Source: Flavobacteriales bacterium
GTDB taxonomy: Bacteria; Bacteroidota; Bacteroidia; Flavobacteriales; BACL11
DNA: 37,394 bases
Assembly: GCA_028122735.1 (NCBI GenBank)
Contig: JAOHSR010000002.1
Location: forward strand, 80,760-118,153
Reading direction: 5' to 3'
The notes below the pieces were generated by a model. The model worked only from the letters and a program-made list of their open reading frames with translations, ran no database searches and was not told the origin of the DNA. Positions 12,381-16,680 of the stretch are shown here, piece after piece. A program made the position numbers and the translations under genes. Each line of letters starts with the position of its first letter. Position 1 is the first letter of the stretch.

Positions 12381-15300
12381 ATGAGTAAATTTAAAGAATA
12401 TAGCGCCCTAGATCTTTCAGCAGCCAACAAAAGCATCTTAGACTTTTGGAACCAAGAGTCTGTTTTTGAAAAGAGTTTTGGTGATAAAAATAAAAGCTAT
12501 AACTTTTATGAAGGCCCTCCATCTGCCAATGGAATGCCAGGCATTCACCATGTTATTGCAAGAACCATAAAAGATCTTTTTTGTAGATACAAAACCTTAA
12601 AAGGTTTTAATGTTTATCGAAAAGCGGGATGGGACACACATGGGCTTCCTGTAGAGCTTGGTGTAGAAAAAGAATTAAATATAACTAAAGAAGACATTGG
12701 AACTAAGATATCTATTGAAGATTATAATAAAGCATGTAGGGTTAATGTAATGAAATACCAAGCTGCCTGGGAAGATATTACGACAAAAATGGGGTATTGG
12801 GTTGATATGAAAAACCCGTATGTTACTTATGACAATAAGTATATTGAAAGTGTTTGGTGGTTATTAAAACAATTACATAATAAAAAACTATTATATAAAG
12901 GGCATACTGTTCAACCCTTCTCACCAAAAGCAGGTACTGGTCTTAGTACACACGAATTGAATCAGCCAGGTTGCTATCGTAACGTAAAAGACACTTCTGC
13001 TATAGCACAATTTAAAATTATAAAAAATAAGCAAAGTAAATTTTTATTTGAAAAAACAGGTAAAAGTATCTTCTTCCTTGCCTGGACAACAACTCCATGG
13101 ACTCTTCCCTCAAATACTGCTCTAGCTGTTGGCAAAAAAATAACATATGTGTTAGTTGAAACTGTAAATCAATATAATGGAGAGATTTACTCCGTAATAC
13201 TTGCAAAAGATTTGCTTTCAAAACATTTTAAAACGGAAAACGAAAACACCTCTTTTGAAACATACGAGGTTGGAAACAAATCTCGTCCTTATGTGGTTTT
13301 AAAGGAATTTACTGGAGATTTATTAGTGGGACTAGTATATGATCAATTACTAAAATATGCAGTGCCTAAAAACGGAGATGCGTTCAGGGTTTTGGCTGGT
13401 GATTTTGTTACAACTGAAGATGGGACGGGTATCGTACATTTAGCGCCAAGTTTCGGGGCAGATGATGCTAGAGTAGCAAAACAAAATGGTATTGGCTCAC
13501 TTACTCTTGTTGATGAACAAGGTAGATTTACTAAAGAGGTAAATGATTTTTATGGGCAATATGTAAAAGATGAATTCTACACTGAAAATAATACAAAGCC
13601 AAAGCTACCTGCCGACGTTCAGATTATCATCAAACTAAAAGAATCTGGACTACTCTTTAACTCAGAGAAATACGAGCATAGCTACCCTCATTGTTGGAGA
13701 ACAGATAAACCAATTTTATATTATCCTATGGATAGTTGGTTCGTAAAAACAACCGAGCACAAACAAAGAATGATGGAACTCAACAAAACTATTAATTGGA
13801 AACCATCCTCTACTGGTGAAGGCCGATTTGGTAATTGGCTAGAGAATCTTGTAGACTGGAATTTATCAAGATCTAGATTTTGGGGTATTCCTTTGCCAAT
13901 CTGGAGAACTGAAAATGGTAAAGAAGAAATCTGTATTGGCTCGCTTGAGGACTTAAAAGCAGAAATAGATCGCTCAGTTAGTTTAGGTTTCATGAAAGAG
14001 AACCCACTTGCAGATTTTAAAGCGGGAGATTTCTCTGATGAAAATTATTCTATTTTTGATTTACACAGGCCATATGTCGATGATATCATTTTAGCTTCAA
14101 AGTCTGGATTAAGAATGACTAGAGAGCTTGATCTTATTGATGTTTGGTTTGATTCTGGCTCAATGCCATATGCTCAGCTTCATTACCCATTTGAAAACAA
14201 AGAGTTGTTTGCAAATCGATTCCCAGCTGATTTCATTGCTGAAGGAGTAGACCAAACAAGAGGTTGGTTTTTCACTTTACATGCAATATCCACACTTTTA
14301 TTTGACTCTGTTGCTTATAAAAATGTAGTGTCAAATGGACTTGTATTAGATAAAGATGGTAATAAAATGTCTAAACGACTTGGAAACGCAACAGATCCTT
14401 TTCAAACACTGGAAAAACATGGGGCTGATGCTACTAGATGGTATATGATTTCAAACGCCCAACCTTGGGACAATTTAAAATTTGATGAAGAAGGAATACT
14501 CGAGGTTAGAAGGAAATTTTTTGGCACACTATATAATGCTTATTCTTTTTTTACATTGTATGCAAATATTGATGGGTTTAAATACAATAATAAAGCAAGT
14601 TCATTAGAAGAAAGAGACATAACTGATCGATGGATTATTTCTGAATTAAATTCATTAATAAAAGATGTTGAAGCACATTATGAAAATTACGAGCCTACCA
14701 AAGCTAGTCGTGAAATTCAAGACTTTGTAACCACTAAGCTTAGTAACTGGTATATCCGATTAAACAGGAGAAGGTTTTGGAAAGGAGAATATAATTCCGA
14801 CAAAAAAAATGCCTATTGCACCTTATTTGAGTGTTTAAGTACTATTGCAATTATTTCCTGTCCAATTGCTCCATTCTACATGGATCAGTTGTATCAGGAT
14901 TTAAATCAGAGCACTAATTCTGTACATTTAGCAAGCTATCCAAAGTTTAAAAAAAATAATATCAATAAGGTTCTTGAAACTCAAATGCAATTAGCGCAAA
15001 TAATGTCTTCTTCAATTTTATCTTTAAGAAAAAAAGAAAAAATTAGAGTGCGACAACCACTTGCTTGCGCATTAGTTGCGGTATCAAATGAAGAAACCCG
15101 ACAGGCTCTTGAGAAATCTACAGAAATTATATTAGGCGAAACAAACTTGAAAGGACTAGAATTTCTATCACAAGATTCCGATAAGCTTTCAAAAAAAGCA
15201 AAACCAAATTTTAAAATATTAGGACCAAAATATGGAAGCAAAATAAAGGAGGTTTCAGCTCTTATTCAAAACTTAAATAACCAACAAATTAAAACACTTG

Positions 15301-15707
15301 AATCTCATGGCTCAATAAATGTTAAGGAGGGGGTCGAAATTTCTATCGACGATGTAGAGATTGTTTCTGAAGATATCGCAGGATATTCCGTTTCAACAAA
15401 TAATTATTTTAGTGTTGCTTTGGATGTTAGTATTTCACAAGAATTAAGCGATGAAGGTTTGGCAAGAGAATTTATAAATCGAATTCAAAATTTACGAAAA
15501 GACAAAGGTTATTTGGTAACTGATAAAATTTATATTGAACTTGAAAAAAACAATGAAGTTGAAAGAGCAATTAAAAATAATTTGACATATATTTGTAATG
15601 AAACGTTAACAGAAGAGCTTAAATTTGGTTTGAAAAAATTAGAAAATTATGACGAATTAATTCTGGTAAACAACATTGTCTGTAGGGTTTTAATTTATAA
15701 GAAATAG
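12381..15707 (+). CDS. ileS: Isoleucyl-tRNA synthetase, type 2, with swapped HIGH motif (GIHH)
   Basis: 1108-aa class I aminoacyl-tRNA synthetase that charges tRNA-Ile in the cytoplasm. The catalytic core starts YEGPPSANGMPGIHHVIART; the usual HxGH signature appears as Gly54-Ile55-His56-His57. GWDTHGLPVE, the editing (CP1) domain with TTTPWTLPSNTALAV, and LVDWNLSRSRFWGIPLP follow. The KMSKS loop is KMSKR (662-666) and the C-terminal anticodon-binding region ends the protein. Length and sequence match the eukaryote-like IleRS2 type, which is naturally less sensitive to mupirocin. First gene of an operon with the DksA-like gene (1-base gap) and lspA, behind the box at 12351-12358. Confidence 0.97.
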   Translation: MSKFKEYSALDLSAANKSILDFWNQESVFEKSFGDKNKSYNFYEGPPSANGMPGIHHVIARTIKDLFCRYKTLKGFNVYRKAGWDTHGLPVELGVEKELNITKEDIGTKISIEDYNKACRVNVMKYQAAWEDITTKMGYWVDMKNPYVTYDNKYIESVWWLLKQLHNKKLLYKGHTVQPFSPKAGTGLSTHELNQPGCYRNVKDTSAIAQFKIIKNKQSKFLFEKTGKSIFFLAWTTTPWTLPSNTALAVGKKITYVLVETVNQYNGEIYSVILAKDLLSKHFKTENENTSFETYEVGNKSRPYVVLKEFTGDLLVGLVYDQLLKYAVPKNGDAFRVLAGDFVTTEDGTGIVHLAPSFGADDARVAKQNGIGSLTLVDEQGRFTKEVNDFYGQYVKDEFYTENNTKPKLPADVQIIIKLKESGLLFNSEKYEHSYPHCWRTDKPILYYPMDSWFVKTTEHKQRMMELNKTINWKPSSTGEGRFGNWLENLVDWNLSRSRFWGIPLPIWRTENGKEEICIGSLEDLKAEIDRSVSLGFMKENPLADFKAGDFSDENYSIFDLHRPYVDDIILASKSGLRMTRELDLIDVWFDSGSMPYAQLHYPFENKELFANRFPADFIAEGVDQTRGWFFTLHAISTLLFDSVAYKNVVSNGLVLDKDGNKMSKRLGNATDPFQTLEKHGADATRWYMISNAQPWDNLKFDEEGILEVRRKFFGTLYNAYSFFTLYANIDGFKYNNKASSLEERDITDRWIISELNSLIKDVEAHYENYEPTKASREIQDFVTTKLSNWYIRLNRRRFWKGEYNSDKKNAYCTLFECLSTIAIISCPIAPFYMDQLYQDLNQSTNSVHLASYPKFKKNNINKVLETQMQLAQIMSSSILSLRKKEKIRVRQPLACALVAVSNEETRQALEKSTEIILGETNLKGLEFLSQDSDKLSKKAKPNFKILGPKYGSKIKEVSALIQNLNNQQIKTLESHGSINVKEGVEISIDDVEIVSEDIAGYSVSTNNYFSVALDVSISQELSDEGLAREFINRIQNLRKDKGYLVTDKIYIELEKNNEVERAIKNNLTYICNETLTEELKFGLKKLENYDELILVNNIVCRVLIYKK

Positions 15708-15708
15708 C

Positions 15709-16083
15709 ATGAAAGAAAAAACAACATATACAAAGGCTGAATTAAAAGAATTCAAAAGCCTAATATTAAAAAAAATTGATAGTGCTGAAGATGATTTAGC
15801 AATTTTAAGAGCGTCTTGCGCAAATGATGCTGACAATGGAACAGAAGACACCTCTCCAACATTTAAAGCTTTCGAAGAAGGCTCTACTACTCTATCAAAA
15901 GAGGAAAACACAAAGCTAGCCGAAAGACAGGCGAAGTTTATTATTAACCTTAAAAATGCATTAATTAGAATTGAAAACAATTCATATGGTGTTTGCCGAA
16001 TTACTGGAAAGTTAATTTCTAAAGAACGCCTAACATTAGTTCCACATGCCACTCTTAGTATTGAAGCAAAAAAAGCTCAATAA
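15709..16083 (+). CDS. TraR/DksA-family regulator lacking most zinc-finger cysteines
   Basis: A 124-aa DksA-like protein, expected to bind the RNA polymerase secondary channel and tune transcription. It has an N-terminal helix pair (YTKAELKEFKSLILKKIDSAEDDL ... LAERQAKFIINLKNALIRIE) forming the coiled coil. The C-terminal globule is NNSYGVCRITGKLISKERL, then VPHATLSIEAK. Aligned to E. coli DksA, only the first zinc cysteine remains (Cys96); the others are Thr99, Ser117 and Ala120. Zinc binding is therefore unlikely. The Asp pair typical of the DksA coiled-coil tip appears as NDADNGTED, which needs structural alignment. I recall this form as common in Bacteroidota. It lies between ileS and lspA, 1 and 9 bases from its neighbours. 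Confidence 0.88.
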   Translation: MKEKTTYTKAELKEFKSLILKKIDSAEDDLAILRASCANDADNGTEDTSPTFKAFEEGSTTLSKEENTKLAERQAKFIINLKNALIRIENNSYGVCRITGKLISKERLTLVPHATLSIEAKKAQ

Positions 16084-16092
16084 AATTAAGAT

Positions 16093-16680
16093 TTGAAAAA
16101 AGTACTTACTACAGCGCTTCTTCTTCTAGTTGTAGATCAGCTGTCAAAATTCTGGATTAAAACAAATATGTTTTTAGGTCAAGAGTTTAAAATCTTTGAC
16201 TGGTTCATAATTCATTTTACTGAAAATAATGGCATGGCCTTTGGCTTAGAATTTGGTGGTGACACGGGCAAGATAATACTAAGTGTTTTTAGAATTATCG
16301 TAATAGTCTGGGGGTTTTCTTACATAACTACACTTACTAAATCAAAACTTCCAAATGGACTATTAATAGCCTTAGGCCTTGTTTTTGGAGGGGCTATTGG
16401 AAATATTATTGATGGGGTGTTTTATGGCGTACTATTTAATGATAGTTATAATCAAATTGCGGAGTTTCTTCCCGCTATTGGCGGCTATTCCACGTTTCTG
16501 ATGGGAAAGGTTGTAGATATGTTTTACTTCCCCATTATAAACACCCATTTCCCAAATTGGGTGCCTATTTTTGGTGGAGATCATTTTATTTTCTTCAGGC
16601 CAGTTTTTAATGTTGCTGATGCGGGAATTTCTGTAGGAATGTTTCTGCTAATCCTTTTTTACAGAAAGCATTTTAGATAA
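16093..16680 (+). CDS. lspA: Lipoprotein signal peptidase (signal peptidase II)
   Basis: A 195-aa inner-membrane aspartyl protease that removes signal peptides from prolipoproteins. Four hydrophobic segments; conserved blocks are LLVVDQLSKFWIK, ENNGMAFGLEF, GNIIDGVFYGVLF, MGKVVDMFYFP (catalytic Asp142) and FNVADAGISVGMFLL (catalytic Asp176). The start is TTG at 16093. A TAA lies in frame just two codons upstream (16087-16089) and no ATG precedes the conserved first helix, so the TTG is well supported. Third gene of the ileS operon. Its last 33 bases overlap the convergent crtYcd gene. Substrates in this window include GldH and the small lipoprotein at 34426-34803. Confidence 0.95.
   Translation: MKKVLTTALLLLVVDQLSKFWIKTNMFLGQEFKIFDWFIIHFTENNGMAFGLEFGGDTGKIILSVFRIIVIVWGFSYITTLTKSKLPNGLLIALGLVFGGAIGNIIDGVFYGVLFNDSYNQIAEFLPAIGGYSTFLMGKVVDMFYFPIINTHFPNWVPIFGGDHFIFFRPVFNVADAGISVGMFLLILFYRKHFR

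Follow-up and report, generated by a model that had tools for sequence, protein, structure and literature searches.

The isoleucyl-tRNA synthetase (IleRS) encoded in a 37,394-nucleotide stretch of DNA from a Flavobacteriales bacterium (the window) carries the class I HIGH signature in swapped form, as GIHH, and this GXHH trait is phylum-wide in Bacteroidota as sampled. The gene is the ordinary, essential, chromosomal housekeeping type 2 enzyme (IleRS2) of a Bacteroidota bacterium. By analogy with characterized enzymes, we consider it highly likely that it is the only chromosomal housekeeping IleRS2 of its host, that His56 of the motif acts in catalysis and clashes with mupirocin, and that hyper-resistance above the basal level of IleRS2 would follow. 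The G/AXHH variant was published in 2023, and the window enzyme is a further, predictable instance of that mechanism; the modest interest of the finding lies in the complete uniformity of the motif across the phylum. If the analogy holds, the mupirocin target itself would be insensitive throughout a dominant gut, soil and aquatic phylum, which bears on how ileS is scored in resistome surveys and on whether antibiotic selection is required for the swapped motif.

Type and signature motifs of the window synthetase

The features of the gene are as follows.

12381..15707, + strand: ileS, type 2 isoleucyl-tRNA synthetase, 1108 aa (TIGR00392, PDB matches, Pfam)
12540..12551, + strand: GIHH (Gly54-Ile-His-His57), swapped class I HIGH motif, codons GGC ATT CAC CAT (alignment)
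12921–12932, 13692–13703, 13899–13916 and 14091–14111: zinc-site positions (alignment with Priestia megaterium IleRS2)
14181..14195, + strand: HYPFE (residues 601–605), eukaryote-like/IleRS2 marker (alignment; marker per PMC4861432)
14364..14378, + strand: KMSKR (residues 662–666), second class I signature (pattern check, alignment, tree)

The open reading frame of 1108 codons runs on the + strand from ATG at 12381 to a stop at 15705–15707. Its product scored 1000.7 bits with the ileS profile TIGR00392 against a cut-off of 621.4, identifying it as an isoleucyl-tRNA synthetase, and contains the Pfam domains tRNA-synt_1, Anticodon_1 and DUF5915. Its closest named relatives are from uncultured Flavobacteriales, at 68% identity. 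The best PDB matches are IleRS2 enzymes: the sequence search gave 820 bits to IleRS2 versus 308 bits to IleRS1, with the closeness to IleRS2 extending over the full length, C-terminal domain included, and Foldseek gave E values of 1.6e-83 and 6.8e-46, respectively. Cvetesic et al. (PMC4861432) defined HYPFE as a marker and listed Tyr59, NKIL and SSL as marks of IleRS1; in our alignment HYPFE is present and the three IleRS1 marks are absent. The type 2 assignment made in the first-pass annotation, which was drawn from the DNA letters, is thus borne out by markers and PDB scores alike. Trp130 of IleRS2 is also retained. Asn70 and Phe586, two residues of P. megaterium IleRS1 that contact mupirocin (PMC10485003), correspond to Ala60 and Leu654 in the window protein.

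Among solved structures, those of P. megaterium IleRS2 (8c8u, 8c8v) and its GVHH mutant (8c8w) come nearest in both sequence and fold, and the mutant is the top match in both searches. The alignment with P. megaterium IleRS2 is gap-free over the motif, with window residues 54, 56 and 57 at P. megaterium positions 54, 56 and 57, so that GIHH lies under the wild-type His54-Val-Gly-His57 (HVGH) and under the GVHH of the engineered 8c8w. Gly therefore occupies motif position 1 and His position 3, in register, as the first-pass annotation had proposed. GIHH is the sole [GA]xHH match in the whole protein, HxGH is absent from it, and G54, H56 and H57 are invariant among 26 aligned relatives. A sequencing or alignment artefact, in which the His pair would be out of register or an assembly error in an incomplete genome would have created the motif, has a negligible chance of being correct: the gap-free register and the presence of the swapped motif in every relative already refute it. 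Unlike the window enzyme, wild-type P. megaterium IleRS2 has HVGH and coexists with an IleRS1, and the GVHH form of that protein was engineered.

Most of the zinc-site cysteines of P. megaterium IleRS2 (CPSC/CWRC in CP1, CEGC/CPVC in CP2) are missing from the window protein, which has SPKA and CWRT in their place and lacks a Cys pair in CP2. Across the sampled genomes of the phylum, some clades retain CPRC/CWRC and others have lost it in various ways (DPKS/SWRY, SPGS/DWRK), amounting to about five changes on the tree. Ser48 (12522–12524) aligns with Tyr59 of the E. coli enzyme, a position at which the other classes have Thr (alignment, tree); E. coli Tyr59 has been linked to tRNA-dependent pre-transfer editing (PMC4861432).

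Distribution of the motif and copy number of ileS across Bacteroidota

The pattern N-G-x-P-[GA]-x-H-H was searched in a sample of 296 genomes of the GTDB phylum Bacteroidota, covering 140 genera and 51 family codes. The swapped motif was found in all 296, whereas the reversed pattern occurred in ~5 of them, indicating that its occurrence is far above chance. Among 121 IleRS sequences of relatives that were read, 100 have GIHH, 21 have GVHH and none has HXGH. HXGH patterns are common elsewhere in these genomes, and the matches listed are mostly NGYLHIGH or NGP[IV]HIGH, which we take to be other class I synthetases. The fixation in 296 of 296 genomes, together with the invariant G54, H56 and H57, implies that the window enzyme is functional.

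A scan with TIGR00392 at E ≤ 1e-120 over 198 genomes, mostly overlapping the 296, found exactly one ileS in 197; in the remaining genome ileS is truncated because it begins at the end of a contig. At this threshold, neither a second ileS nor an IleRS1 appeared in these 198 genomes. The window's own genome, which is 58.7% complete, has one ileS over the cut-off, and its near-complete relatives have one each, which agrees with the earlier proposal of a single housekeeping gene. That proposal had attributed the swapped motif to "this lineage": the motif is indeed present there, but it is not exclusive to the lineage, since every genome in the survey shares it.

In a quick tree of 66 sequences, from which the motif columns were excluded, all members of the phylum have GXHH, with zero state changes among them. 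The few other rows show two changes in total. Given its simple model and long branches, the tree is a poor guide to relationships outside the phylum. The trait is probably ancestral to the phylum, and its phylum-wide occurrence weakens the case for recent selection by mupirocin.

KMSKR has a different history. On the same tree it occurs only within one well-supported clade, which has 33 rows and includes the window; a few of these rows have returned to KMSKS. Nearly all sampled members of the window's class have KMSKR, and none of the other classes in the sample does. Because those classes pair GXHH with KMSKS, KMSKR is a later, separate change within the window's class; it is no evidence for hyper-resistance, and a role as partner change of GXHH was ruled out. 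KMSKR had also been read as fitting IleRS2, a reading that calls for amendment, as IleRS2 enzymes in the other classes have KMSKS.

Probable mupirocin resistance and the persistence of the motif

The published work on GxHH and mupirocin to which the first-pass annotation referred exists and agrees with the account given in that annotation. In Brkic et al. 2023 (PMC10485003), G/AXHH is reported in 86 of 379 sampled IleRS, every one of type 2, and raises the mupirocin Ki by as much as ~thousandfold with catalysis retained. For native ALHH-IleRS2 of D. radiodurans the Ki is 6.6 mM, and conversion of its motif to HVGH lowered the Ki by >800-fold; the change from HVGH to GVHH raised it ~175-fold in T. 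thermophilus IleRS2 and ~430-fold in P. megaterium IleRS2, and swaps in both directions largely preserved catalysis. According to that paper, the third His takes over the catalytic part of the first, and a model shows it clashing with mupirocin. The main text of that paper and the list of IleRS2 groups in PMC4861432 (2016) do not name Bacteroidota, and our literature searches on mupirocin susceptibility in Bacteroidota returned nothing direct, neither a Ki nor an MIC for any IleRS of the phylum.

Based on these prior findings, it is most likely that His56 acts in catalysis in the window enzyme and that the enzyme's Ki for mupirocin is very high. GIHH would lie where the first catalytic helix begins. 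There His56, in the third position, may stabilize the transition state when isoleucine is activated, as the usual first His does elsewhere; the helix tip is shifted in IleRS2, which would permit this takeover. The same residue would also clash with mupirocin, adding hyper-resistance to basal IleRS2 resistance. An AlphaFold model places the motif at the start of helix 55–73, as expected for the tip of α1, with confidence that is moderate at the motif and low around KMSKR, too weak at the active site for its geometry to be judged. The window enzyme resembles the G/AXHH IleRS2 of Deinococcus radiodurans (ALHH) and Streptomyces griseus (PMC10485003) in being of type 2, in the exchange of motif residues 1 and 3 and, probably, in being the sole housekeeping enzyme. 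It differs from them in having KMSKR for KMSKS and in the loss of most CP1/CP2 zinc-site cysteines; moreover, millimolar Ki values were measured for those two enzymes, whereas the resistance of the window enzyme is predicted by analogy.

These differences bear on the possibility that the window enzyme has only ordinary IleRS2 resistance, with a micromolar Ki, because other residues of the Bacteroidota protein offset the motif. The Ki values within the G/AXHH class spread from 35 μM to 6.6 mM (PMC10485003); the lower value, obtained with the GVHH form of T. thermophilus IleRS2, indicates that the motif alone does not set the level of resistance, and Bacteroidia enzymes do differ elsewhere, at KMSKR, at Leu654 and in the lost zinc ligands. 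We nonetheless regard this possibility as unlikely, as in all four published swaps or natural cases the G/AXHH form of a scaffold is far more resistant than its HXGH form, and the proposed clash between the third His and the drug is independent of KMSKR, Leu654 and the zinc ligands (PMC10485003).

Why the motif persists is a separate matter. One explanation, to which we give close to an even chance, holds that this IleRS2 branch fixed GXHH long ago as an alternative way of arranging catalysis and that resistance is its chemical by-product, not maintained by antibiotic pressure. It concerns the reason for the motif and is compatible with the proposed mechanism of His56. The survey, without exception in 140 genera, the zero state changes within the phylum and the lack of HXGH among the sequences read all favor it; uniformity over such diverse bacteria would be hard to attribute to one Pseudomonas product, and, with the swap fixed over very different lifestyles, current exposure to mupirocin would be a poor explanation for its upkeep. 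However, PMC10485003 describes enzymes with a natural GXHH that have no clear catalytic gain, and reversion, which occurred in Deinococcus-Thermus, is possible; ancestral selection by mupirocin or related compounds may thus have acted. More specifically, and somewhat more tentatively, GXHH may have been fixed in the ancestor of Bacteroidota (GTDB) and kept, with no exceptions, for catalysis rather than by antibiotic pressure, leaving the whole phylum hyper-resistant as a by-product.

Gene neighborhood and ileS genes on other contigs

Two genes follow ileS in the window.

15709..16083, + strand: DksA/TraR-like gene, 124 aa, downstream of ileS (alignment and position shared with relatives, among them a gene of Riemerella annotated as TraR/DksA)
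16093..16680, + strand: lspA, lipoprotein signal peptidase (Pfam Peptidase_A8)

The order ileS, DksA/TraR-like gene, lspA recurs in Flavobacteriales, Bacteroidales and Riemerella. Two CotH-domain proteins are encoded upstream of ileS and carotenoid genes lie downstream (Pfam), and there is no sign of a mobile or antibiotic-related island among these neighbors. The acquired-resistance class is also distinct by score: the cut-off for the MupA/MupB exception is 1900 bits, and the window IleRS reached 790 and 802 bits. MupA, a plasmid-borne IleRS2 of Staphylococcus, is 39% identical to the window protein over 97% of the latter; it has HAGH and KMSKS and is an acquired second gene, whereas the window ileS is chromosomal and, as far as is visible, alone.

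The DksA/TraR-like protein had no Pfam match at 1e-5. It and its relatives have just one of the four cysteines of a C4 zinc finger (GVCRITGKLISKERL), though database records annotate them as C4-type.

A mobile copy of ileS in Riemerella was considered and dismissed. The Riemerella anatipestifer "plasmid" NZ_CP081938.1 (101,897 bases) carries ileS-dksA-lspA-lepA within 83681–101897 and is apparently a piece of chromosome mislabelled as a plasmid.

A protein scan of viral contigs for IleRS gave no matches, and a DNA pattern search turned up a few IleRS among the contigs in the viral collection. One of these, on a 430-kb contig (L198:4204-7041), is a 945-aa IleRS with GIHH and KMSKS that adjoins RtcB-like and NAD synthetase-like open reading frames; the contig is possibly a huge phage carrying its own swapped-motif synthetase. 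Another (L194:1864-5004) has GIHH, KMSKS and intact zinc cysteines with an integrase nearby, and its contig reads like a bacterial chromosome flank from outside Bacteroidota.
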